21,238 bases of DNA, taken from positions 1-21,238 of IMG/VR virus record IMGVR_UViG_3300028610_002058; one strand, written 5' to 3'. This DNA is from a virus. Under the pieces are notes generated by a model. It saw nothing but the letters and a program-made list of their open reading frames with translations, was not told where the DNA came from and made no database searches. Of the stretch, positions 2,093-21,238 are shown piece after piece. Made by a program: the position numbers and the translations under genes. Each line of letters opens with the position of its first letter. The first letter of the stretch is position 1.

Positions 2093-4237
2093 ATGGCTGA
2101 CGAACAGATTGTTGAGACCCTTGACCGGGCAGAACTCAGAGTAAAGACTGATTGGGCAAATCCACCTAAACTGGAAGACCTCAAACAGGATTATATGGAT
2201 GCAGCAAATCATCATAATAATCATGTTACGCAGGTAAATACCTGGCTAGACAACTTGAATGTGACGGGTGCTGCTAAACCTAAATTCCGTAAAGGTCGCT
2301 CACAAATTGTACCGAAGCTCATCCGCAAACAAGCTGAATGGCGCTATGCTGCCCTGTCTGAATCTTTTCTTTCCCATGAGAATTTGTTTACTACTGAACC
2401 GGTCACTTTTGAAGATAGGGATGCCGCAGAACAAAATGGTTTAGTCATCAATAACCAATTTAATACAAAATTGGATAAAGTTGCCTTTATTGATGAGTAT
2501 GTACGAGCAGGTGTGGATGAGGGTTCCATCATAGTCCGTGTTGGTTGGGATTTTCAAGAAGAGGAAATTGAAGTAGAGAACTTGGTTCCTACTCCTATCA
2601 CTAATCAATTTCATAAAGATATGGTGGAACAAGCTGCTGGACTCATGATGCAAGATCCAGAGGGAGCATCACAACAGTTACCCCCAGAGCTATTACAGAC
2701 GGCTCAATTGTCCCTAGAAATGGGAGAATTAGTAGAACTCAAGGTGGATCCTGATGAGCCTACACGTAAAGAAAAACGTACTATTCTAAATCAACCTACG
2801 GTAGAGGTTACCGATTTTAGTTCTACTATTATCGATCCAACATGTAAAGGTATTTTGGATAATGCTGCCTTTATTATTCATAAGTTTGAAACGAGTAAGA
2901 GCGATCTAGAGAAAGATGGTCGGTATGTAAATCTTGATCATATCAACATAGAACGCAATGCCATACAAAATGCAGAGACCGATACTGAACAATCTGAAGA
3001 TACGGGCTCATTCAATTTCAAGGATAAACCTAGAAAGAAATTTGATGTATTTGAGTATTGGGGTTTTTGGGATATTGATAATACAGGGATGACCGTTGCA
3101 TTTGTCTCAGCCTGGGTTGGTGACGTAATGATTCGCTTGGAAAGATCTCCTTTCCCTGATGGAAAATTACCCTTTGTACTTATTCCGTATTTACCTAAAC
3201 GGAAGAGTGTATATGGCGAACCTGATGGCTCCTTACTTGAAGATAACCAGAAGATTGCGGGAGCCGTGACTCGCGGTATGATCGACATGATGGGTCGTTC
3301 AGCCGTTGGACAGATAGGGTATCGAAAAGATGCCCTGGATGTTACCAATCTTCGTAAATTTGAAGCCGGAACGGATTATTCTTTTAATGCCAATATTGAT
3401 CCTCAAATGGCATTTCATACTCACAAGTTCCCTGAAATACCACAATCCGCTCAATTCATGTTGCAGTTACAAAACAATGAAGCAGAATCATTAACCGGCG
3501 TAAAAGCCTTCCATGGTGGGATTAGTGGGGAAGGGTTAGGCAGGTCTGCTACTGCTGCCAGGTCCGCTATTGATGCGGCCGGTAAGAGGGAATTAGGTAT
3601 ACTCCGCAGACTCGCTAGTGGAGTAGTACAAATTGGTAGGAAAGTTATGGCGATGAATGCTGTTTTTCTATCAGAAGAAGAAATAATTCGCATAACTAAC
3701 GAAGAGTTTGTTACAATTAAGCGGGATGACCTCCAAGGTAAGGTTGATATTAAGTTAAAAATCAGTACCGCAGAGGCCGATGATACCAAGGCACAGGAGT
3801 TAGCATTTATGTTGCAAACGACTGGGCCCAACTCGGATCCAGCAGAAGTGCGGATGATCCGGGCAGAAATAGCCAAGTTACGCAAGATGCCTGAATTGGC
3901 TAAACGAATTGAAGAATTCCAACCGCAACCTGATCCGTTGGCGGTTAAGAAGGCAGAATTGGAAATTGAATTACTTGTAGCTGAGATTGATAAGACAAAA
4001 TCGGAAGCTGAAGAAAATAGAGCTGAAGCACAGTTAGACCGCTCACAAGCAAGTAAAGCTGACTCAGAAAGAGATTTGAAAGATCTGGAATTTGTTGAAA
4101 CAGAATCCGGGGTAACACAGGAAAGAGCAAAAGAAGTTGTAGGTGAACAAGCTCGTGCAAATGAGAACTTAGAAGTCACCAAAGCAATACTTTCACCAGA
4201 AAGTGGCAATACCCAATCCGGGCAACCCACTCAATGA
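2093..4237 (+). CDS. Portal protein, N4 gp59-like
   Basis: This 714-residue protein should form the dodecameric ring at the capsid vertex through which DNA is packaged and ejected. The N-terminal part strongly resembles portal proteins of N4-like phages: a K-x-R-K-G-R-S-Q-I-V-P-K-L block followed by RKQAEWRYAALSESFLS (residues about 83-99) and then FIDEYVRAGVDEG.IIVRVGW. Residues about 400-500 hold the conserved GAVTRGMIDMM and GLGRSATAARSAIDAA segments, probably the stem/wing helices. The C-terminal 110 residues (about 600-710) are highly charged and helical, predicted by eye to be coiled coil, ending in a short polar tail. It lies directly before the 123-aa gene (13 nt gap), the order seen in N4. 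Family recognition is by remembered pattern, with no alignment run. Confidence 0.95.
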   Translation: MADEQIVETLDRAELRVKTDWANPPKLEDLKQDYMDAANHHNNHVTQVNTWLDNLNVTGAAKPKFRKGRSQIVPKLIRKQAEWRYAALSESFLSHENLFTTEPVTFEDRDAAEQNGLVINNQFNTKLDKVAFIDEYVRAGVDEGSIIVRVGWDFQEEEIEVENLVPTPITNQFHKDMVEQAAGLMMQDPEGASQQLPPELLQTAQLSLEMGELVELKVDPDEPTRKEKRTILNQPTVEVTDFSSTIIDPTCKGILDNAAFIIHKFETSKSDLEKDGRYVNLDHINIERNAIQNAETDTEQSEDTGSFNFKDKPRKKFDVFEYWGFWDIDNTGMTVAFVSAWVGDVMIRLERSPFPDGKLPFVLIPYLPKRKSVYGEPDGSLLEDNQKIAGAVTRGMIDMMGRSAVGQIGYRKDALDVTNLRKFEAGTDYSFNANIDPQMAFHTHKFPEIPQSAQFMLQLQNNEAESLTGVKAFHGGISGEGLGRSATAARSAIDAAGKRELGILRRLASGVVQIGRKVMAMNAVFLSEEEIIRITNEEFVTIKRDDLQGKVDIKLKISTAEADDTKAQELAFMLQTTGPNSDPAEVRMIRAEIAKLRKMPELAKRIEEFQPQPDPLAVKKAELEIELLVAEIDKTKSEAEENRAEAQLDRSQASKADSERDLKDLEFVETESGVTQERAKEVVGEQARANENLEVTKAILSPESGNTQSGQPTQ

Positions 4238-4250
4238 GGAGTAAGTAGTA

Positions 4251-4622
4251 ATGAACGAGGTAGAACGCAATATTCAAGAAATTGAAATAACTATTGAAGA
4301 GGCTAAAGCCTGCCAAACTAGAAAGAATACACTTTTACGCTTGTATGATAATCCAGACTTTAAAGATATTATCCTGGAAGGATTTTTTAAAGAAGAAGCT
4401 GAACGTATTGTAAGTTTGCGAGGTTCTCCAAATTGTCGTATGGGTGAACAGGGTGCAATGCAATATGCCTTAGCTAATGATATAATTACCAGTATTGGCG
4501 GTTTACGACAATTTTTGATTACAATAGAAACAAGAGGTAATGCTGCAGATCAGGCTCTTGTTGCTGATGAAGAAACTCATCAACAACTTCTAAATGAACA
4601 GTTAGGCGTTTCGGAGGTGTGA
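4251..4622 (+). CDS. Small conserved N4-like protein between portal and scaffold (gp58-like)
   Basis: This 123-residue, mostly helical, acidic protein begins with a charged helix (MNEVERNIQEIEITIEEAK). NPDFKDIILEGFFKEEAERIV follows at about residues 34-54, and IGGLRQF sits near residue 84. The pattern of NPDF-x-x-x-IL-x-G-x-F, then IGGLRQ, then a DEE-containing tail is typical of the small protein following the portal in N4-like and some other podoviruses. Its function is not established; adjacency suggests a head-assembly role. GAGGAG at 4236-4241 lies 9 nt before the ATG and overlaps the portal stop, which favours coupled translation. Confidence 0.88.
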   Translation: MNEVERNIQEIEITIEEAKACQTRKNTLLRLYDNPDFKDIILEGFFKEEAERIVSLRGSPNCRMGEQGAMQYALANDIITSIGGLRQFLITIETRGNAADQALVADEETHQQLLNEQLGVSEV

Positions 4623-4623
4623 T

Positions 4624-5898
4624 ATGTCAAACGAAGACAACAATGCACCACTGAAAACAGTAGCGGAACTTACAGACGCTGAAATTATGGGTATGGATTC
4701 TCCAGAGAGTTTAATACCTCCTGAAGAAAACAAAGAAAACAAAGAAAACAAAGAAAACGAAGATAACGAAGATAACGATAATTCTGACGCTGAGGGTGAC
4801 ACCTCAGCAGATGACCAGGCTGCGGACGGCGAATCCGACGAGGGTAACGATTCAGAGAATACAGGTGGTACTGACTCTGAAGATAGTTCCTCAGAAGACC
4901 AAGGCGATGGCGCAGGTGATACCTCTACTGATAAGGATGATGGTGATGACACTGAGAGTACGGACTTAGATTCATCTGGAGATTCTTCCGAAGACGACCA
5001 ATCTTCGGATCAGGATGATTCAGACGATGATGAGGAAGATTCTGATTCAGATACCATCAATTTTGAAGTAGAGTATAAGAAGCTCATGGCTCCTTTCAGG
5101 GCTGCCAAGCGGGAAGTATCATTAAATAATATTGATGATGCCCGTCGCTTGATGCAAATGGGTGTAGATTATTCTCGGAAGATGGAGAGTATGAAACCTC
5201 ATATGCGGGTAATAAGAACCCTGGAGAAAGCCGGACTTCTTGATCCTAAAAAGATCAACTTTTTAATTGACCTGGACCGAAAGAGTCCAGAGGCGATTAA
5301 AAAGCTCCTCAAAGATGCTGACATTGATCCAATGACATTATCTAATGAGGACGACGTGGAAAACTATTCTCCCACTGACCATACTATGGGCGATAAGGAA
5401 TTAGCGGTCACGGAAGTTCTTGATAAAATTAAGGGCAATCCGTCCTTTAACAGAACCGTTGAAGTTATCACCAATGAAATGGATACGAAGAGTAGAACCA
5501 TGTTGCAAGACAATCCTGCAATTATTGCTATGATTGATGAGCACATCGACTCAGGAATCTATGATCAAGTCATGGATAGAGTCGCAAGTGAGCGAACTTT
5601 CGGGCGTCTTGTGGGCCTGTCTGATCTGAATGCCTATTACCAAATTGGCGATGCAATGCATAAAGCTAATGCCTTTAAAGGGGTAGACCAGCTTAGCAAC
5701 ACCGACAATGGAGAGGACAATCAGAACTCAGCACAGGATTCTGGATCAGATTCAGCGAAAGCTGAAAAACAGCGAAAGAATCGCAAACGTGCTGCAAGTT
5801 CTACCAAAAGTGGAATAAGCGGTGGGAAAGCGGCTCCAGATTTTTCACAGATGTCTGATGCAGAGATCGAAAAATTTGATTCGTCGACCCTAACGTAA
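4624..5898 (+). CDS. Acidic scaffold-like / prohead assembly protein (gp57-like)
   Basis: This 424-residue protein lies immediately upstream of the major capsid gene, where scaffold proteins usually sit. Residues about 35-140 are an extremely acidic, low-complexity Asp/Glu/Ser stretch opening with a tandem ENK-type repeat. Residues about 145-345 look like a folded helical region, followed by a basic patch (KAEKQRKNRKRAA, about 380-395). The same short motif occurs near both ends: LTDAEIMGMDS at 16-26 and MSDAEIEKFDS at 410-420. A basic, helical C-terminus and acidic body fit a capsid-binding scaffold, but gp57 homologues are sometimes labelled tape measure or merely structural. The start is set by a perfect GGAGGT at 4613-4618, inside the end of the previous gene, 5 nt from the ATG. 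Confidence 0.88.
   Translation: MSNEDNNAPLKTVAELTDAEIMGMDSPESLIPPEENKENKENKENEDNEDNDNSDAEGDTSADDQAADGESDEGNDSENTGGTDSEDSSSEDQGDGAGDTSTDKDDGDDTESTDLDSSGDSSEDDQSSDQDDSDDDEEDSDSDTINFEVEYKKLMAPFRAAKREVSLNNIDDARRLMQMGVDYSRKMESMKPHMRVIRTLEKAGLLDPKKINFLIDLDRKSPEAIKKLLKDADIDPMTLSNEDDVENYSPTDHTMGDKELAVTEVLDKIKGNPSFNRTVEVITNEMDTKSRTMLQDNPAIIAMIDEHIDSGIYDQVMDRVASERTFGRLVGLSDLNAYYQIGDAMHKANAFKGVDQLSNTDNGEDNQNSAQDSGSDSAKAEKQRKNRKRAASSTKSGISGGKAAPDFSQMSDAEIEKFDSSTLT
4726..4779 (+). repeat. 9-nt tandem repeat coding ENK/DNE units
   Basis: Six consecutive 9-nt units, the first three exactly GAAAACAAA and the last three diverged (GAAAACGAA, GATAACGAA, GATAACGAT), encode ENK-ENK-ENK-ENE-DNE-DND at residues 35-52 of the scaffold-like protein. 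Unit length is a multiple of three, so copy-number changes by slippage keep the frame. It opens the long acidic linker. Confidence 0.95.
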
Positions 5899-5929: not shown

Positions 5930-7435
5930 ATGCCTTTTGAAAATCCTCACGGTTACGGAAATACCGCAGGAACTACATCTGATGTAGGCCCCCAAATCCG
6001 GGTCGATTTCTATCGACGGAGAGCACTTGTTGAAGCTGCCAAAGAAATGTACTTTGGACAATTGGCCAATGTGACCAATATGCCGAAGAACATGGGTAAG
6101 ACCATCAAGTTGTTCCATTACATGCCTTTGCTCGATGATCGCAACCAAAGTGATCAGGGTATCCAAGCTGATGGTGTTTCGTTAGTTGCAGATTTTGTAG
6201 TAGCTACGACCATCGTTACCCACGTTTTGAAATTGGTCGCTCCTGCGGCTGATGGTGGACGTACTTACTACTTCTGGGGTCAAGCTCAGGGTGGTAGCAT
6301 TGGTGCTGCAAAGACTGCTGCTCAAAATGTAGCTGAAGGACAGGAATTTAGCTGGTTGATTATGAACGGCTGGATCCCATCTTCTGATGCTAACTATGCT
6401 GCTGGCGTAGTTACTATTGAAGCTGCTGGTTGGACAGAAACTACAGAAACCACTGGTGACGAATTCACCGATTACGGTAATCTGTATGGTTCAAGCAAGG
6501 ACGTTGGTACTATTACGGCTAAACTGCCTGCACTCACCGAGTTTGGTGGACGTGTAAACAGGGTTGGTCATAAGCGTATCATGTTGTCAGGTACTCTTGA
6601 GAAATTCGGTTTCTTCGACGAATACACCCAGGAAAGCTTGGATTTTGATACAGATGATCAGCTTCTCAGCCACATCACCATGGAAGCCGTTAAGGGCGCC
6701 AACGAAATAACGGAAGATCAACTCCAGATCGACCTTCTGGCAGCAGCCGGCGTAATTCGTTATGCAGGTATTGCCACTAGTACGGTTTCTCTGGCGGGAT
6801 CTACCGCTGCAGCTAACTTGGAAGACGTGATCGCATACGACGACCTCGTGAAGTTGGATATCGAGCTTGATCAGAACCGGACACCAAAGAACACTCAGTT
6901 GATTTCTGGTTCACGTATGATCGACACTCGTGTCATCAATGCTGCTCGTTATGCTTACATCGGTAGCGAACTCCAACCTGCAATCATGCGGATGACTGAT
7001 TATCACAGCGACAAAGCATTTATCCCGGCAGTACAGTATGCTGACGGTGGTACGCTTGCTCGCGGTGAGTTCGGTGCCGTAGGTAATTTCCGCATTATCG
7101 TTGTGCCGGAAATGATGCATTGGGACGCTTCTGGTGCCTCAGTTGGCAATACGGCTGATGAAGTCGTTAACTGGTCAGCAGACGAATCAGGTGTCGCCAA
7201 GGTTAACGTTTACCCGTTCCTGGTTGTTGGTGACGGCTCCTTTACGACTGTAGGTTTCCAGACTGATGGGAAAACTGTAAAGTTTACCATCACTCATAAG
7301 AAGCCTGGTCGTGATACCGCTGATCGCAATGATCCGTACGGCGAGGTTGGGTTCTACTCAATCAAGTGGTACTACGGCTTCATGACTCTGCGCTCTGAAA
7401 GGATCGCTCTTCTGAAGTCGGTTGCTACTCTCTGA
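5930..7435 (+). CDS. Major capsid protein, N4 gp56-like (HK97 fold expected)
   Basis: This 501-residue protein is the main shell subunit. The block GKTIKLFHYMPLLDDRN followed by DQGI.ADG (residues about 57-82) is a hallmark of N4-like capsid proteins. Later stretches (FGGRVNRVGHKRIMLSGTLE, KFGFFDEYTQESLDFDTDD, ITEDQLQIDLLAAAGVIRYAG) also fit that family. It is about 100 residues longer than the roughly 400-residue N4 capsid protein; much of the excess may lie between about residues 85 and 175, a Gly/Ala/Thr-rich, Trp-containing stretch that could be a surface domain. Codon use looks more uniform and more GC-rich than in the neighbours, as expected for high expression. It follows the scaffold gene and is closed by a hairpin 19 nt after its stop. 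Confidence 0.96.
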   Translation: MPFENPHGYGNTAGTTSDVGPQIRVDFYRRRALVEAAKEMYFGQLANVTNMPKNMGKTIKLFHYMPLLDDRNQSDQGIQADGVSLVADFVVATTIVTHVLKLVAPAADGGRTYYFWGQAQGGSIGAAKTAAQNVAEGQEFSWLIMNGWIPSSDANYAAGVVTIEAAGWTETTETTGDEFTDYGNLYGSSKDVGTITAKLPALTEFGGRVNRVGHKRIMLSGTLEKFGFFDEYTQESLDFDTDDQLLSHITMEAVKGANEITEDQLQIDLLAAAGVIRYAGIATSTVSLAGSTAAANLEDVIAYDDLVKLDIELDQNRTPKNTQLISGSRMIDTRVINAARYAYIGSELQPAIMRMTDYHSDKAFIPAVQYADGGTLARGEFGAVGNFRIIVVPEMMHWDASGASVGNTADEVVNWSADESGVAKVNVYPFLVVGDGSFTTVGFQTDGKTVKFTITHKKPGRDTADRNDPYGEVGFYSIKWYYGFMTLRSERIALLKSVATL

Positions 7436-13361: not shown

Positions 13362-16300
13362 ATGCCTAGTGTATATGACCGGTTAGCGGGAATTTCTGGC
13401 AAAAACATTGACGATACTCTGGCTAGTAAGAAGCAGAGTATAGCCAATACACAAAATGCCCGTGCTAGACGATTAGATCCCTCTTACACAATATTTGATC
13501 CAGATGAATGGATTAAACCTCTTGATGGCGATACGTTAGTCCATAAAACTCAATTCACTACAGATGGAAAACCATTAACTATGCGTTTTGCCCTTCCAGC
13601 GGGACAAACATACGATACTTTTGAAATTAAAAAAGATCAAATACCAGAAGGTCGACCTGGCCATGACCCTTATGCGGATAATCCGCGTCGTGCAGATTTC
13701 CATAGAGAAGCCTTAGCCCTACAATTGGGTAAGGATTTCGATGATATTTCAAATCAAGATTTGTATAATGCAGGCATAGCACAACATCAACGCCTTATTG
13801 ATGGAATAGAATCTCTTCGCGGTCAACCAATGCGCCTTGATAGGAAAGGTGATAAATATGGGCGGGCCCTTGGCAGATTTGAAAATCCGGATGCACTAAA
13901 AGAAATATCGGGTGGTGTACAAGCAGGATATACTTCACCATTTAATGCCCAAGAACAAGTGGCAGATTTTCTGGAAGACCCTTCAAATTTTGTTAAGCCC
14001 CAGGATCGTTCTTTAGTAGAAGCCATGTTTCAGGATTCTCCTGTAGGTTTTGTGGGCACCATAGCTACTGTAGCGAATACTATTGCCCAATTTGTAGCCA
14101 TTGGTCAATCTGTTGCCTCAGGTAAATCTGTGCCACCAGAATTAAATCAATTCTTTGAAAATAATAGAGATCGCATTAAAAATGCGAAAGAACATTTTTC
14201 AACAAATAGTAAAAATTTTCGTGAAAGAATGGATGCGAAAGAAAAACAATTTTTACAAGAACCACTTTATAATGCTCGAGTTGTTAAATTCAGCGAAGAA
14301 CATCCAAATGCTCTAGATGGCACTATTGCATTTCTGGCAGGTATTGCAGAATATGGGGATCGTCTTGAATATCTGTATGAAAATCCGGGACGAATTTTGG
14401 ATGCATCTGCAGAATCTTTACCGTATATGCTGGGAATTGGTGTTATTGGTAAAGTATCAGCAAAAGTAGCTTCTGAAGCGATAGGACGAGGTTTAGCCAA
14501 TCGATTAGTTAAAGAAGGTGCTACTAATAAAAATGCTATCGCTGTTGCGACTGAATATTTGGCCAGTAAAGCGGGTAAGGCAGCAGTTGAGAAAGCATCT
14601 TCCCGGGCAGGTATATTAGCTATTGCTAGTTCCGAAGCTGCAATGAATGCGGCAGAAGTCTACGGACAAGTAGCCGTAATGACTCCGGAAGAATTAGCTG
14701 GCTCAGAAAGATATACAAAATTACGGGGTCAAAATTTGAGCCATGAAGCAGCTCGAGATATTTTAGCTAAAGAAGCATTTAATAAAATATTCTATTGGAA
14801 TTTTGCTGTAGCAGGATTTGCTTCTAAATTTTCAGGAGCGGGTGCTTGGGAATCACAATTACTTAGGCAATTTACAAATAAAACAAAAAAAGGATTTTTA
14901 CGACGTACCGGAAATTTGGTAGGAGAAAGTTTCAAGGCAGGTGGGCGAGAATTTGTTGAAGAATCAATTCAATCAGGTGCTGGGGAAGCATTATCTCAAC
15001 GAGGAAGGGAAGAAACAACAGGAGTACAAGTAGGTCCTGGTGTTGGTGCTGCAACTGCAGAAGGTGGAGTAGTAGGCTTTGCTTCAGGTTTAGGACTTAG
15101 TGGTGCTGCTCGTATGGGTGCCGGTTTTTCTAAAGGGTTCATAAAAACTACTAAAAACTTAAATAAAAAAATAAATGAAGATATTGGTGCTGCTACAGAA
15201 AATGTAACAGTAATAGGAGCCGATGGTGCAGTCGGTGGTGGAGTAAATGTTGATAGTACAATAAAAACGGAAAAACAGGAAAATGTATACCAGCCGGAAG
15301 AACATATTAAAAGGATGCTTCAGGACTCCGAAACAGCAGAGACAACTGATGAGGAAGCATCACACCTCTTTATTGATATGCAGAGACATTGGGGAGAATT
15401 CAAAAAGCAAGCAACTGATGAGGAAATTGCAACCCTTGAAGGCTCAGTTGAACGGTTCTTTGATGAAGCCTATGTGGCCCTTAACACTAAAGCTATCGAA
15501 CTCACTAAAGAATTCTCACAAGAAGAATTATTCGCAGATCCGGATAAGAAAGCCATCATTATGGCGGCAGCTAAATATGCAGGGTTCCAGAATCCAGATA
15601 CCAACTCTAAGATGGGTCAATATCTTAATGCTGTTCGGGTTACACAAGCTACACTAGAAACTGCACAAGAGACTGCGGACGCAAATGAAGAGATTCTTTT
15701 GGCTCAAGGAACTTCAAAAGAAAATATTAATCGTGTTATTGAAGAAAAAATGGGATATGGGGTTGAGGGTCAATTGGGCCTGAACGGCCATGTGATAAGA
15801 ATTGAAGGAGCGGTCCTGGAAGGAAACTCTGAGGAGTATTCTCGATTTGATCGAGTATTAGGTAATTTTATAATAAGCCAGGTTAGAAAATTGAAGGCTT
15901 CAAATGAATTGCTGGAACGTGTTACCAACATTAAAGATAATGAAACAGTTGCCGGTATTGAGGAAGAAATCAAAGAACAATTTAAGCTGAATCAAAAAAT
16001 AACGTATAAACCACAGCAAGGAACGAATAAGAATACAGGATTATTTGGTTTTATTGCTTTACAGACTTCTGAATTGGCTGAAATGGGAGCAGTACGTCAG
16101 ACATTAGCTGATCAGGCGGTAATTGAGTTTGAAGGATTGAATGAACATTCCTTACAAATTGCACAACAACCCATACCGGGAGCTGATTTGGCTCAGTTAC
16201 AGGAAGCCTTTGAAAGTTTCCTTACAATTCCTTCGGAAACAAGTGTTGACGAGACGGCGCCAGCCGGCGAGGAAACCCAAGTCGAAGACTCCCAAGGTCC

Positions 16301-19300
16301 TGAAATAAAGGCGACTGTTGAGGCCGGTTCTTTGGCCGAAACAGAGAGCCGTATTTCAGAATCTCGGGAGTCTGAGCTGAGCACTACGGAAATACAAACT
16401 GCAGAGACAGATGTCGAGGCGTCAGCCGAGACCCAAGTCAAAGACGGGACCCCCGTCCCGGCTTTGCTGTCCCAAGAGAAAGATAGAGCGTCCGACGCTA
16501 CCGAGCAGCAAGCCGAGCCGAAGGCAAAGGCGCCCGCTGCGGAGGTAGCTGAGGACGTAGATGCGGAGATTGAAGAGATAATCTCTGCAGATTCTGCGGA
16601 GAATATTCAGGAAGAAGAGGAATTCATTATTCCGGGCATAAACGGGCCTGTAATAGAGCCAACTACCCAAACTGATACATTGGCTGCCTCAGAAGAAGAA
16701 ACGGGCGTAGAGGAGCCTACAGAGCCTTCAGAACCCATAAAATTGGATGAAGCAGACTTAGAGAAAGCACGGATCACGGCAGAAGAGATTCAGAGCCTTT
16801 TAAAAGAAGAAAATGTAACTCTGGATGATATTTCTTTTACCAGTGAAAATACACAAGAACAGTTTTTACAAAAGGTAGAAGAATTTGATGGGGATATTCG
16901 TTTAGCTGCGGAAGATTTTCTAACTCGTTTGGAAGTTACACATGGTGAAAGCGTCATCAGGTCTCCAACTAATCGAGTAAATGAGGAAATAGAAACTGAA
17001 TTAATAGAGTCTACTCAGACTTTACTGAGTGGTAAAAAGTTAAAACCTACACTAATTAATCGTTTAAGTAACAGTGTTGACTTTATATCTGAGCCACTAG
17101 TACGACATTTAGCTGCATTAGTGGGTCGGAATAAACTTCCAACATCTAATTGGACAGAAAAACAGCTATTAGATACGAGAAATGACCTTAAAGCACGGTT
17201 TATCCAGCTTAAACTTCCGACTCAGATCTTACAAGGTATACAAAATAGTCGGGAAACAGTGAATTCTCTACTTGCTGCTGTCCCGAATGTATTCTCTACG
17301 TTGAATGAGCGAGGTACTAGGTCTAAATTCTACAGAGATATTGATGCAAGCTTCAAAGAACGCCAAGGATTCAATGGAGTTATAAATTTTGTTAATAACT
17401 TTGTAGTAACTTTTAATGATCTTCATCTAGGATTGTTAAATGATTTAGAAAATCCAAATAGTCCCTTTAACAAGGCAAATAGGGGAGCAGAAGGTGCTGC
17501 TATCGCACGAAGACTGCAGGAATACAGTTTACAATTCTTATTTCAAGCAGAGAATGGGGAAATAGATGAGAACTTCGCTACTATTATGGCGCTTGAAGCG
17601 GGTAATTGGTTAGTAGGAAATGGTGCTGGCACAGTTAATAAGACAAATGATTCAATTAACAGTCTCTTAGGTCGCTCATCTGGAGTTGAAATTACTAACT
17701 GGGAGAGAGAACGCTTTGGAAATGGCACTCTTGCCACTACAGTTATCACAAACATTGGTAATAGAGTACTTAGACAAGCAAATATTGCACTTAAGAACAA
17801 AGTTGACCTAGATCCACTGTTTGAAGAAAAATTAGCAGTTTCTATCGGTACTATGGTAGTTAGTACCTTAAAGAAGATGGATAGAGTAGAATTACATCCT
17901 ATTGAAGTTGGGTTGCGAACTAATCTTAGTAATCAGGTTGTTGATACGGCTGTTAATCCGAAAACCATAATGTACTTAATACACAACAAAACACAAAGTA
18001 CGGATCCAAATCAGGTAGGGTTTTATCAGGAAGCTGTAATTAACGAACAATTGAGAACTCAATTTCAGCAAGCCCGGCGACTTATGCGGGATGTCTTCTC
18101 TATTGATGCATATCAACGAGGACCGTCTGATAGCGCTCCGCCTGGGCCCACACATTATCAACATAGTTCAAGAGCTGCTCCTGTAAAACATACAAAGAAT
18201 TTGGAAAAAAATTCCAAACACCCATGGCGCCTTATTCCGTCGCATATTAAAGAATTTAATACGTGGACGAAAGAGCGTATGTTACAGGTCATGGGACAAA
18301 AGACTGAACAACAAATTGAAACGACTATTCATATTGATCATCGCTCTTCTATTGAATCTAAAAATGCACGGAATATTAGGTCTTACAATGATTTAACCCA
18401 TGCTATTAATGAATGGGGTACTGATGAATTTTATTTTGGACATCTTTTAATCAGCACTGGGCGTAATATGATCGATAGCAATATGATCAATCCTCAGGGT
18501 GATAAATTACACCGAGCCACAATGAGCATGTCAACCCATGCCATTACTTTAAAGTCCACAAGCTTACGTCCTCAAGGTATTAATCACACAAACTTGAATA
18601 AATTTAAGAGTGGATTAGCATTTGCTTTAGATATTGATTCCAGTGTTTTAACCACAGATGAAGTTATTACGGCTTTTGATGCTCGAATTAACAGTGAAGA
18701 TTATCAAGCAGCTTTGACAATAATGAGAGCAGAGCGAGCTGAAGGTGTTCAGTATACAAAAGAAGAGATGGATACTATTGCTCTTGTCTTGAGTGAAGAT
18801 GATGGACCCACGTCACTTATGGCGTTACGTGCTTGGGCAGATCTGTTAAGAGCGGGTGATCAGAATAAAAGACAAGTAACAGTCACTGCACCAGATGAAG
18901 CTGATGGTAAGACCAACGGGTATACTTCATTGTCCATGCAAATTGTACCGAATAATAGAAGTATTCTAAATACACTCGTGAGTCAGTATCAAGCAGGTGG
19001 TATTTTCTTCCGCAGGGATATTTACAAAGAGTATCCTGATTTTGCTGGAGAAAAAGGTACTAATGATAATTATCAGCAAGTTATTAAGGAGATGGAAAAA
19101 ATTGTAGAGGCCATGCGTAACGGTCAGAAGATTGTTCTACAGAATCCGCCTTTAGATAATTTTGGAAAAGAATTACCAGTATTGCCCGATCGTCGACTTA
19201 ATTTTGATCCTATTGGTTCAATAGAGAGGAATGTATTCATTCATTTGGATCGAAGCTTTGCAAAGTCACCATTGATGATTGGAGCATATGGTTCACAATA

Positions 19301-21238
19301 TCAATCAATTCGTAAAGCCAAAGCGGAAGATCAAGTTAGGGAAGCTAAAACAGAATTAGCTCTCGCAGGTGGGGAAGTTGTTACTGAAGAAAATTTGGAA
19401 GAGGCAAAGAAAGCTTATGCTATTCTATTAACTCGAAACCAGATTGTGGCACAAACCGGTCAAGGTAAAGAAACAAATGGCCAAGTAATGTATGAAGAAC
19501 GCTTAGCTTCCATGGCCAATATTACAACAGTAGAAGCTTTTTACAAACTCCGAACTTCACATAAAATACCGGTTCAATTTTGGACAGAATATAGCATAGC
19601 AACAGATATGTTATTCGGTCATGCCTTACAGGCTGACTTAGAAGTCCGTATGATGGGTTTTTATGATCTACGTAATGATTTGAATGATGCAGCCTGGCTG
19701 GCCAATAGAATATTTGTATCTGATTATAAACGGAGAGTGGCTCATTTTGAAAAAAGAAATGACGCTTTTCTTTCAGAAAAAGATCGTCAAACAATCCTTC
19801 GCAGTATGCGGAAACAAGGATTATTTCCAATTGTTAAATCGGCATTGTCCAACACAATTGAAGATGGTATTGAATTAACCAATTTCCAAAGAGAACCTAT
19901 TGATATCAAGGCTGCTCGTGGTAGATCTTATTTTTCAGAAAAAGAACAAATTAGTGATACTGGATATCGCACTGATGGTAGTAGTTTTACTCCATCCTCA
20001 ACTCATTCATTGACATCTGCTGTGACCACACCGACTCCTAATGCAGAAGTAGGCGTACGTGCAGTTGTAAATTTAATCTTATCTTCCGATGGTAGTGTTA
20101 TGAGCAATACCATGGGTCAATATGCTGCCCTGGGATTACATGATGCTATATATATGAGCCCAGAAACAGTGGATGAAGCAGGTACCTTTGCAAATCAACA
20201 GTTTGCTGAGGTTCATGAAAATTGGAATATGCCTGCAGAGATATTAGTGACTTTAGAAAGAATGTTACGGTTGATCGCAAAGAAAGATTCACGCCTCTCT
20301 GAAGCTGATAAGATAGAAATCTACCAAGATTTTCTAGCACATCGTACTAGGTTTGGCACTGTAGCAAAAACAGATACAACCCCGCCTATTATTTCTTTTA
20401 ACACATGGATTGCAGACTTAAGGACAGCTATTGATGAAAATACGGAAGGGCGGAAAAAACTCCATCAGCAAATTTCCCATGTGGCTAACTTTGCTAAAGA
20501 AGGGACCTCTCACTCAGTTTCCGATGCTACGGGGACGACAGTCCCAGTCAAAACACCGGAACTTGCGGAAGCGGCGGAGACGTGGAGAGCCGGATTAAAA
20601 CAGTTACAGGTAGAAGAACAAGAACGAGCTTGGACTGTTAAAAAAGATGCCATTATTGTTAAATTACATACTGCTATTCATAATGACGGGAATACAGATG
20701 ACATACTCCGGGATTGGTTTACTGCTACAGACAATATGTATCAGCCCAATGCTGAACATGTCTTAGATGTCTTATTTGGCGCCTACCAAGATTTATTTAA
20801 TGAAGATACGGATATTACACGTCTACGTGAATTGATCAATGTTACCCGAGCACAGCTTACTCTCCCAGATGGTATAACCGGTGAACCTCGAGCCATTCAA
20901 GTGAAAATGGCTGATTCTGCGGATATGGGAGTCACTGATGGTCGATACGATCCAGATGCTGGCATTATTTTCCTACGCAGTGATGCACGTAATTATATGG
21001 ATACACTGATGCATGAGATTGTACATGCCAGTGATGTTCGTGCATTAGAAAATCTGAGGAACGAAAAAGAAGAGGATTTCAATCAACTCTTAAAAGAATC
21101 TTTGACTTGGGCCCGGAGGAATGTCGCCGCTGCTGACGGCACCGCTGCAAGACTCGCTTCTCTCACCATTCTTAATACAGAAGATGACGTGTGGGCGGTT
21201 GCTGAATACATAGCCTGGTTAAATACGTCCCTGGAAGT
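13362..21238 (+). CDS. Giant virion-encapsidated RNA polymerase, N4 gp50-like, multidomain (3' partial)
   Basis: The frame is open for 2625 codons to the right edge. In N4 this protein is packaged, ejected with the DNA, and transcribes early genes from single-stranded hairpin promoters. T7-type motifs appear in order: STGR (R1701) followed by NPQG (1710-1713), motif A DGKTNG (D1848), motif B RSFAK...AYG (R1964, K1968, Y1976) and motif C LHDAI (D2261). The +4/+8 spacing in motif B equals that of T7 (R627, K631, Y639). The first position of the usual D/TxxGR is Ile (I1697). N-terminal to the core are a nuclease-like domain (44-194), a Gly/Ala-rich hydrophobic region (about 320-605) and an acidic linker (about 950-1140). 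C-terminal to it is a zincin-like domain. N4's polymerase core starts near residue 998 of about 3500; here the catalytic Asp lies about 290 residues further in. There is no clear ribosome site, so coupling to the upstream gene is likely. Confidence 0.95.
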   Translation, partial: MPSVYDRLAGISGKNIDDTLASKKQSIANTQNARARRLDPSYTIFDPDEWIKPLDGDTLVHKTQFTTDGKPLTMRFALPAGQTYDTFEIKKDQIPEGRPGHDPYADNPRRADFHREALALQLGKDFDDISNQDLYNAGIAQHQRLIDGIESLRGQPMRLDRKGDKYGRALGRFENPDALKEISGGVQAGYTSPFNAQEQVADFLEDPSNFVKPQDRSLVEAMFQDSPVGFVGTIATVANTIAQFVAIGQSVASGKSVPPELNQFFENNRDRIKNAKEHFSTNSKNFRERMDAKEKQFLQEPLYNARVVKFSEEHPNALDGTIAFLAGIAEYGDRLEYLYENPGRILDASAESLPYMLGIGVIGKVSAKVASEAIGRGLANRLVKEGATNKNAIAVATEYLASKAGKAAVEKASSRAGILAIASSEAAMNAAEVYGQVAVMTPEELAGSERYTKLRGQNLSHEAARDILAKEAFNKIFYWNFAVAGFASKFSGAGAWESQLLRQFTNKTKKGFLRRTGNLVGESFKAGGREFVEESIQSGAGEALSQRGREETTGVQVGPGVGAATAEGGVVGFASGLGLSGAARMGAGFSKGFIKTTKNLNKKINEDIGAATENVTVIGADGAVGGGVNVDSTIKTEKQENVYQPEEHIKRMLQDSETAETTDEEASHLFIDMQRHWGEFKKQATDEEIATLEGSVERFFDEAYVALNTKAIELTKEFSQEELFADPDKKAIIMAAAKYAGFQNPDTNSKMGQYLNAVRVTQATLETAQETADANEEILLAQGTSKENINRVIEEKMGYGVEGQLGLNGHVIRIEGAVLEGNSEEYSRFDRVLGNFIISQVRKLKASNELLERVTNIKDNETVAGIEEEIKEQFKLNQKITYKPQQGTNKNTGLFGFIALQTSELAEMGAVRQTLADQAVIEFEGLNEHSLQIAQQPIPGADLAQLQEAFESFLTIPSETSVDETAPAGEETQVEDSQGPEIKATVEAGSLAETESRISESRESELSTTEIQTAETDVEASAETQVKDGTPVPALLSQEKDRASDATEQQAEPKAKAPAAEVAEDVDAEIEEIISADSAENIQEEEEFIIPGINGPVIEPTTQTDTLAASEEETGVEEPTEPSEPIKLDEADLEKARITAEEIQSLLKEENVTLDDISFTSENTQEQFLQKVEEFDGDIRLAAEDFLTRLEVTHGESVIRSPTNRVNEEIETELIESTQTLLSGKKLKPTLINRLSNSVDFISEPLVRHLAALVGRNKLPTSNWTEKQLLDTRNDLKARFIQLKLPTQILQGIQNSRETVNSLLAAVPNVFSTLNERGTRSKFYRDIDASFKERQGFNGVINFVNNFVVTFNDLHLGLLNDLENPNSPFNKANRGAEGAAIARRLQEYSLQFLFQAENGEIDENFATIMALEAGNWLVGNGAGTVNKTNDSINSLLGRSSGVEITNWERERFGNGTLATTVITNIGNRVLRQANIALKNKVDLDPLFEEKLAVSIGTMVVSTLKKMDRVELHPIEVGLRTNLSNQVVDTAVNPKTIMYLIHNKTQSTDPNQVGFYQEAVINEQLRTQFQQARRLMRDVFSIDAYQRGPSDSAPPGPTHYQHSSRAAPVKHTKNLEKNSKHPWRLIPSHIKEFNTWTKERMLQVMGQKTEQQIETTIHIDHRSSIESKNARNIRSYNDLTHAINEWGTDEFYFGHLLISTGRNMIDSNMINPQGDKLHRATMSMSTHAITLKSTSLRPQGINHTNLNKFKSGLAFALDIDSSVLTTDEVITAFDARINSEDYQAALTIMRAERAEGVQYTKEEMDTIALVLSEDDGPTSLMALRAWADLLRAGDQNKRQVTVTAPDEADGKTNGYTSLSMQIVPNNRSILNTLVSQYQAGGIFFRRDIYKEYPDFAGEKGTNDNYQQVIKEMEKIVEAMRNGQKIVLQNPPLDNFGKELPVLPDRRLNFDPIGSIERNVFIHLDRSFAKSPLMIGAYGSQYQSIRKAKAEDQVREAKTELALAGGEVVTEENLEEAKKAYAILLTRNQIVAQTGQGKETNGQVMYEERLASMANITTVEAFYKLRTSHKIPVQFWTEYSIATDMLFGHALQADLEVRMMGFYDLRNDLNDAAWLANRIFVSDYKRRVAHFEKRNDAFLSEKDRQTILRSMRKQGLFPIVKSALSNTIEDGIELTNFQREPIDIKAARGRSYFSEKEQISDTGYRTDGSSFTPSSTHSLTSAVTTPTPNAEVGVRAVVNLILSSDGSVMSNTMGQYAALGLHDAIYMSPETVDEAGTFANQQFAEVHENWNMPAEILVTLERMLRLIAKKDSRLSEADKIEIYQDFLAHRTRFGTVAKTDTTPPIISFNTWIADLRTAIDENTEGRKKLHQQISHVANFAKEGTSHSVSDATGTTVPVKTPELAEAAETWRAGLKQLQVEEQERAWTVKKDAIIVKLHTAIHNDGNTDDILRDWFTATDNMYQPNAEHVLDVLFGAYQDLFNEDTDITRLRELINVTRAQLTLPDGITGEPRAIQVKMADSADMGVTDGRYDPDAGIIFLRSDARNYMDTLMHEIVHASDVRALENLRNEKEEDFNQLLKESLTWARRNVAAADGTAARLASLTILNTEDDVWAVAEYIAWLNTSLE
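13491..13943 (+). other. Staphylococcal-nuclease-like (TNase) domain in vRNAP N-terminus
   Basis: Residues about 44-194 match the order of landmarks of thermonuclease domains. DGDT (55-58) corresponds to nuclease D19-T22, GKPLTMRF (69-76) to GQPMTFR with R35, and DTFE (85-88) to DTPE with D40 and E43. FHREA (113-117) corresponds to the conserved GPEA helix, RGQPMRL (153-159) to the following strand, and DKYGRALG (164-171) to DKYGRGLA with R87; then GGVQAGYT resembles the QGLAKVAY tail. All three residue types of the active site (Asp pair, Arg pair, Glu) are present. The spacing is looser than in the 149-residue S. aureus enzyme, with a 4-residue insertion before R75 and a longer stretch before the DKYGR block. 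The domain call is inference from motifs, not a search. Confidence 0.6.
14940..15140 (+). other. Gly/Ala-rich membrane-active-looking segment of vRNAP
   Basis: Residues about 527-593 combine an amphipathic E-rich helix (REFVEESIQSGAGEALSQ) with a Gly/Ala/Val-rich, glycine-zipper-like hydrophobic run (GVGAATAEGGVVGFASGLGL). Other hydrophobic patches lie upstream (YMLGIGVIGKV near 365). Such helices are common in ejected internal virion proteins and large polyvalent phage proteins and may contact or cross the host membrane during entry; this is inferred. Confidence 0.45.
16229..16760 (+). repeat. GC-rich acidic linker with internal duplication in vRNAP
   Basis: This stretch encodes roughly residues 957-1133, a disordered Glu/Ala/Ser/Thr/Pro-rich linker just ahead of the polymerase region. 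It is clearly more GC-rich than the flanking polymerase sequence. A 15-nt word, ACCCAAGTCGAAGAC at 16275-16289, recurs with one change at 16431-16445, an offset of 156 nt (52 codons), so ETQVED and ETQVKD are copies in the same frame. Each copy is preceded by a similar GCCG-GAG stretch. Confidence 0.75.
18423..20250 (+). other. T7/N4-type RNA polymerase catalytic core of vRNAP
   Basis: This span holds all catalytic motifs. The promoter/template-contacting GR block (ISTGRNMIDSNMINPQG) aligns with T7 DWRGRVYAVSMFNPQG without gaps. Motif A is DGKTNGY (T7 DGSCSGI) with metal-binding D1848. Motif B is RSFAKSPLMIGAYGS (T7 RPVTKRSVMTLAYGS). Motif C is HDAIYMSPE (T7 HDSFGTIPA) with metal-binding D2261. 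The distance between the two Asp residues is 413, close to the 392 of N4 (D559 to D951 in mini-vRNAP). No catalytic residue is missing, so an active enzyme is expected. Confidence 0.93.
20889..21238 (+). other. Zincin metallopeptidase-like domain downstream of polymerase core
   Basis: Residues about 2510 to the window edge contain GRYDPDAGIIFL, then YMDTLMHEIVHASD. HEIVH is a zinc-binding HExxH with H2551, catalytic E2552 and H2555. About 60 residues on, VWAVAEYIAWL offers E2615 as a possible third (gluzincin-type) ligand; D2558 is an alternative metzincin/aspzincin-like ligand. A strand with an Asp/Gly turn before the HExxH helix is the usual layout of zincins in large phage polyvalent proteins. 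The domain may continue past the window. Confidence 0.6.

Follow-up and report, generated by a model that had tools for sequence, protein, structure and literature searches.

Similar motifs at the two ends of gp57, a probable scaffolding protein of N4-like phages, and a proposed two-hook mode of action

Introduction

What might a phage protein do with similar short peptides at its two extreme ends? The question is raised by an open reading frame (ORF) in a 21,238-nucleotide stretch of viral DNA (IMG/VR record IMGVR_UViG_3300028610_002058, positions 1 to 21,238; hereafter, the window), which is a fragment of a Schitoviridae (N4-like) phage. The ORF encodes a homologue of N4 gp57. In the sections of the published accounts compared here, gp57 is one of 17 proteins conserved in the N4-like family and is labelled either "tape measure" or "hypothetical"; PHROG and many phage records label the family "tail length tape measure". 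A sequence-only reading of the window had drawn attention to the paired peptides and taken them for two docking sites of one partner. A published description of a twin motif in gp57 was not found in the consulted portions of the open-licence literature.

The gp57 gene and its surroundings

The gp57 gene and its neighbors are as follows:

2093..4237, + strand: portal protein, an alternative partner of gp57 (PHROG 1216; Pfam SU10_portal)
4251..4622, + strand: gp58-like small gene, between the portal and gp57 genes (PHROG 2346)
4624..5898, + strand: N4 gp57 homologue, 424 a.a., probable scaffolding protein (PHROG 2120, E-value 4.7e-98; between the gp58-like gene and the major capsid protein gene)
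5930..7435, + strand: major capsid protein (MCP), 501 a.a., presumed partner of gp57 (TIGR04387, N4-gp56 family, 292 bits; PHROG 1357)

By profile, gene order, and both terminal motifs, the window protein is a member of the N4 gp57 family (PHROG 2120). The profile match spans residues 13-421 of window gp57 and positions 9-401 of the 403 in the profile; no other PHROG is matched by the protein, and all 93 aligned gp57 members (93/93) match PHROG 2120. Relatives were located by tblastn in 469 phage records; none exceeds 60% identity to window gp57, and in none does a single place span 80% of it. Within the head module, the window gene immediately precedes the MCP gene, which is a scaffold-type position. 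The annotated relatives inspected keep the succession of portal, small gene, gp57, and MCP, except that the small gene is not annotated in one record and that two records have a split gene.

The locus has several further features. The window MCP is about 100 residues longer than N4 gp56 (501 vs. 401 a.a.), and therefore seems to carry an inserted stretch, like some marine relatives. The MCP annotation of Alteromonas phage PT15-A5 consists of two frames that overlap (L012:2822-4367). An open-ended frame of 2,625 a.a. at 13362-21236 of the window is the virion RNA polymerase (PHROG 2206), and it contains a metallopeptidase-like HEIVH motif (HExxH, nucleotide 21012) at residue 2551. An endolysin is found at 1116-1583 (PHROG 465, E-value 1.6e-35), and the frame preceding it (274-1140) has no PHROG match at 0.01.

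Two similar peptides at the ends of gp57

The two peptides of the window protein are as follows:

4669..4701, + strand: N-terminal hook motif LTDAEIMGMDS, residues 16-26 (second-highest profile score among 6,855 window positions, 13.1)
5851..5883, + strand: C-terminal hook motif MSDAEIEKFDS, residues 410-420 (highest profile score among 6,855 window positions, 19.6)

Translation places both peptides at exactly the residues reported in the sequence-only reading. Judged on the window protein by itself, the likeness of the two ends exceeds chance only modestly (shuffle p = 0.005, first 40 vs. last 22 residues); the twin motif is secure because both copies occur across the family. The pattern that had been proposed, [LM][ST]DAEI-x-x-[MF]-DS, holds in the window, but its DAEI and DS are peculiar to the window and a few near relatives, and the family-wide pattern is broader: hydrophobic-L-x-[ML]-[ST]-D-[ED]-[DE]-[FI]-x-x-[LMQ]. 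The motif is also of a common helix-capping type and matches a capping box plus hydrophobic staple.

Homologous loci were gathered from IMG/VR scans, scans of bacterial genome contigs, and named records, yielding 357 loci that all contain a gp57 frame; repeats of the same contigs among them were removed by clustering. The start-codon rule gave the expected length in 24/24 checked cases (23 annotated records and the window). Frames that were complete and at least 300 a.a. long numbered 330 and fell into 131 clusters at 70% core identity; the 27 of 357 loci with open or short (<300 a.a.) ORFs, including the split gene of Delftia phage RG-2014, were left out. The ends were then compared by a cross-validated 12-residue profile, trained on one end in other clades, with the threshold set at the 99.5th percentile of shuffles. 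The profile trained on the C-end detects the N-end in 121 of the 131 non-redundant complete homologues, and the profile trained on the N-end detects the C-end in all of them (131/131). By eye, nine of the remaining ten N-ends are weaker variants, and L354 has its motif further in, near residue 60. The poorest N-end variants are those of L021 and L014, and motif anchors were set by hand for L021, L027, L250, and L354. The median start is residue 9 for the N motif and 18 residues short of the C-terminus for the C motif. Alignment of homologues, which had been suggested as a check on the paired peptides, shows both copies to be conserved, with no complete close homologue lacking one among the 131 representatives.

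The same kind of motif is present at both ends in 24 named phages from all over the family, the exception being Delftia phage RG-2014, which has the N half of gp57 in a separate frame. The break in this gene (L025:1654-2849) falls within the core and leaves two frames that overlap, one with the N hook and the acidic linker, the other with the core and the C hook; it is either a frameshift of the record or a real split. In Acinetobacter phage At2 (L022:1653-2828), the similar stretch at either end extends to about 19 residues and contains two successive helix starts.

The motif is also specific to gp57. Among 67 N4 proteins (gp1 to gp67; 20,267 positions), the two places that score highest with the pooled profile are the ends of gp57, at 36.0 and 26.9, and the next reaches 4.9. 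Likewise, the ends of gp57 are the two top places of the window (14 ORFs, 6,855 positions), at 19.6 and 13.1, followed by -0.8. With the pooled profile, a third copy above the chosen threshold was found in none of the 131 gp57 proteins, of which 103 have two copies above threshold, 23 have one, and 5 have none. Only four places outside gp57 score at least 12 among 2.64 million positions in all frames of the loci, and the highest of them lies in the N-terminal piece of the split Delftia gene. No other virion protein carries the motif above threshold in the 67 N4 proteins, the window ORFs, or the frames of the loci.

Concerted change of the two copies

For the covariation test, the N copy of each phage was compared with its own C copy and with those of all others, over 18 positions scored by BLOSUM62 and centred. 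Own pairs average 28.75 and other pairs 22.90 (z 8.0, p 0.0002, 130 representatives; L354 is absent from this test and included in the 131-representative tree simulations). The difference persists at 50% identity, where 22 of 27 clusters entered the test (29.2 vs. 19.1, z 5.4), and in the 86 representatives that remain when the 26 of the window clade and the 19 of a Rhodovirinae-like group are removed, where z is 5.0. When permutation is restricted to within clades, p is 0.0004. Across seven controls with shifted windows, z ranged between -1.3 and 1.9, and p was 0.023 in one of these. In simulations of independent N and C evolution on the core tree, the observed value of 5.82 was reached in 0 of 2,000 runs, the largest being 2.54.

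Gene conversion or recent duplication was considered as the source of the likeness and rejected. At positions that share a residue between the two copies, the codon is identical in 362 of 818 cases, with 348 expected; since codons are shared no more than by chance, DNA exchange between the copies is unlikely. Because the N and C copies covary in each phage, the simplest reading is that both answer to one binding surface. As far as sequence comparison goes, this suggests a common partner for the two hooks, and it suggests that one gp57 molecule grips the same partner with both ends. Split roles, with one end for the portal and the other for the capsid, agree less well with the way the two ends change in concert.

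Predicted shape of gp57

According to charge, column conservation, and structure prediction, three regions lie between the motifs:

4699..5070, + strand: acidic tether predicted to be disordered, residues 26-149, net charge -49 (pLDDT mostly <50)
5071..5673, + strand: helical core, about residues 150-350 (pLDDT mostly >90; conserved columns)
5758..5808, + strand: basic stretch, residues 379-395, ahead of the C hook (charge)

An AlphaFold2 model of the window protein (built with 92 relatives) has a confident core, disordered linkers, and short helices at both ends, at residues 18-23 and 27-30 (N) and 412-417 and 420-423 (C). A separate AlphaFold2 model of N4 gp57 likewise has helices at residues 9-14 and 17-21 (N) and 388-390 and 393-397 (C), with confidence rising at both tips. 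The acidic linker, helical core, and basic patch of the sequence-only reading are therefore all present as claimed, by charge and by the AlphaFold2 model. Some linker figures come from 22 representatives; the net-sign counts come from all 131, among which the N linker is net negative in 131/131 and the 30 residues preceding the C motif are net positive in 129/131. Predicted disorder and this family-wide linker charge bear out the idea of a long flexible tether.

A PDB sequence search gave no match to window gp57, and a fold search of its model gave no PDB match with an E-value below 0.001 and a VIA Z of at most 3.0; this lack of a PDB fold match is not proof of a new fold. In BFVD, the same model has seven fold matches with an E-value below 0.001, all of them phage proteins.

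Possible partner of the two ends

The reading favored here, and judged moderately probable, is that the gp57-family scaffold has two equivalent hooks for one partner site, most likely on the MCP, with which it clasps two subunits or capsomers. Each gp57 chain would carry one short helical hook at either terminus, joined to the helical core by a long acidic tether on the N side and a shorter basic tether on the C side. Both hooks would bind the same site, most likely on the MCP, at the inner face of the growing procapsid, and one chain could thus clasp two coat subunits or capsomers. The choice of the capsid as partner is a best guess by analogy with other scaffolds.

Covariation with the MCP itself was examined in two passes. 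In a first pass with 104 representatives, strong couplings (z >3) made up 2.15% of motif-MCP pairs vs. 0.99% of motif-portal pairs, and several of the top couplings were near the MCP N-terminus. A second pass, in which MCP starts were trimmed and gp57-core columns were added as a control, found motif-MCP covariation no stronger than that of the core control and marked no MCP region (116 of 131 representatives). The MCP N-arm was accordingly rejected as a partner site identified by covariation, since no enrichment is left after trimming and core control. The proposal of two docking sites for one partner is partly borne out: both copies are conserved and covary within each phage, as binding to one site would lead one to expect, but covariation with the MCP does not exceed the core control. 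As for the scaffold trait of a coat-binding terminal helical hook, short helices are predicted at both ends of gp57, with MCP covariation not above that of the core.

Two alternatives keep the hooks and change what they bind. First, the ends of gp57 could bind each other, the N hook of one chain to the C hook of another, in a scaffold network whose self-association would account for the concerted change. Covariation of the N and C copies is equally expected under such an arrangement, and other scaffolds oligomerise, as P22 does into trimers and tetramers in the sections of the literature compared; but both copies have the same acidic run and should repel each other in direct pairing, and pairing of like ends needs no two copies so similar, which makes self-association unlikely. 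Secondly, both hooks could bind a single partner other than the MCP, i.e., the portal, gp58, or another head protein. This is just as unlikely. The P22 scaffold also contacts the portal, according to the same partial sources, but a 12-copy portal site would poorly suit a two-ended, many-copy scaffold, and motif-portal couplings are the rarer in the first-pass figures above, a weak point in that the core control was applied to the MCP only.

A third alternative, which is very improbable, is that the ends are generic helix-capping tips with no partner, alike because few residues start a helix well. The pattern is compatible with the capping box and hydrophobic staple noted above, and the match in the window protein alone reaches only the p of 0.005. 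On the other hand, the ends are conserved beside fast-changing disordered linkers in 131/131 representatives, the motif is confined to gp57, and the covarying sites extend past the helix cap (e.g., -3, +5, and +8). Part of the likeness between the N and C copies may still come from a shared need to start a helix.

Scaffold or tape measure

By the public label of the family, gp57 would belong to the tail. A tape measure is expected in the tail module, whereas the window gp57 gene lies between those of the portal and the MCP. In the sections of the virion studies compared, the virion protein lists of CB1, Moo19, and B2 do not include gp57, which was not identified in the N4 virion either and is represented by one peptide in LIT1. 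The KP8 virion list includes gp57 without a figure in the last column, taken here as coverage, where the MCP has 91 and the portal 57. The particles of ZC03 are different: gp57 is listed there with >20% coverage, among 65 of 85 predicted proteins detected. The comparisons with the literature made in this text draw on parts of PMC4933390, PMC10925440, PMC12633501, PMC10386132, PMC3715699, PMC11654681, PMC6027278, and PMC4193335, and further on parts of PMC6950046, PMC12005531, PMC6813328, PMC5644958, PMC11619397, PMC7650795, and PMC2784036.

Gene position and architecture fit a scaffold, and from gene order and the published virion proteomes, gp57 is probably a scaffolding protein. Since the gene lies between portal and MCP and most of the virion proteomes compared are without gp57, the "tail length tape measure" label is probably wrong. 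That gp57 is a tape measure or belongs to the tail in some other way, with its two ends attached to two tail parts, is hardly credible as the main reading: the PHROG 2120 label and the ZC03 particles (an exception among the virion lists) favor it, but the gene position, the CB1, Moo19, B2, and N4 virions, and the KP8 entry that lacks the figure given for MCP and portal count against it.

Comparison with known scaffolds

The published function of the gp57 family is unassigned or given as tape measure, whereas here it is read as a scaffold with a hook at each end. In the portions of the literature compared, scaffolds use a single terminal hook. As is predicted for gp57, the scaffolds of P22 (gp8) and 80alpha have a short terminal helical hook, which binds coat in P22 and 80alpha, and are helical for most of the remainder (a likeness by description). 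Those of SPP1 (gp11) and phi29 (gp7) also have a terminal helical hook that binds coat. However, P22 gp8 and the 80alpha scaffold have one hook per chain, at the C-terminus, and SPP1 gp11 and phi29 gp7 have one at the N-terminus, where gp57 would have two. CpmB of SaPI1, in the sections compared, is a two-legged molecule that straddles two capsomers, as is proposed for gp57; in CpmB, however, the two legs arise through dimerisation, whereas in gp57 they would be the two ends of one chain.

The scaffolds of Kuravirus and Grimontviridae (SU10, phage 7-11; PHROG 9013) have the same order of portal, small gene, scaffold, and MCP, and the same acidic half, helical core, and basic stretch as gp57, but differ from it in PHROG and in the sequences of their ends. 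The PHROG 9013 profile does not match window gp57, and the SU10 scaffold matches 9013 and 3927. In 13 loci of this type, end-to-end likeness is weak (p 0.04 to 0.73). Three of their scaffold genes (L358:6232-7308, L360:1195-2247, and L361:1216-2235) encode F-x-F-L-x-D at the end and a similar F-x-F-x-x-L-[DE]-D at the start. Twin ends of a Kuravirus type are a lead only.

Implications

With two hooks as the favored reading, a conserved N4-like protein would acquire a function and a binding element that can be tested; the hook peptides are short, lend themselves to simple assays, and could perhaps be used for loading cargo into N4-type shells. Tentatively, and with more doubt than belief, Schitoviridae scaffolds may be seen as intrinsically bivalent: each chain would bear a pair of equivalent coat hooks that evolve together on tethers of unequal length and would clasp two capsomers without dimerisation, the tethers helping to set the spacing of a T=9 shell. 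If this is true, a looser echo in Kuravirus and Grimontviridae would widen twin-hook scaffolds into a larger class, and two co-evolving hooks per chain would represent a new way of setting capsid geometry.
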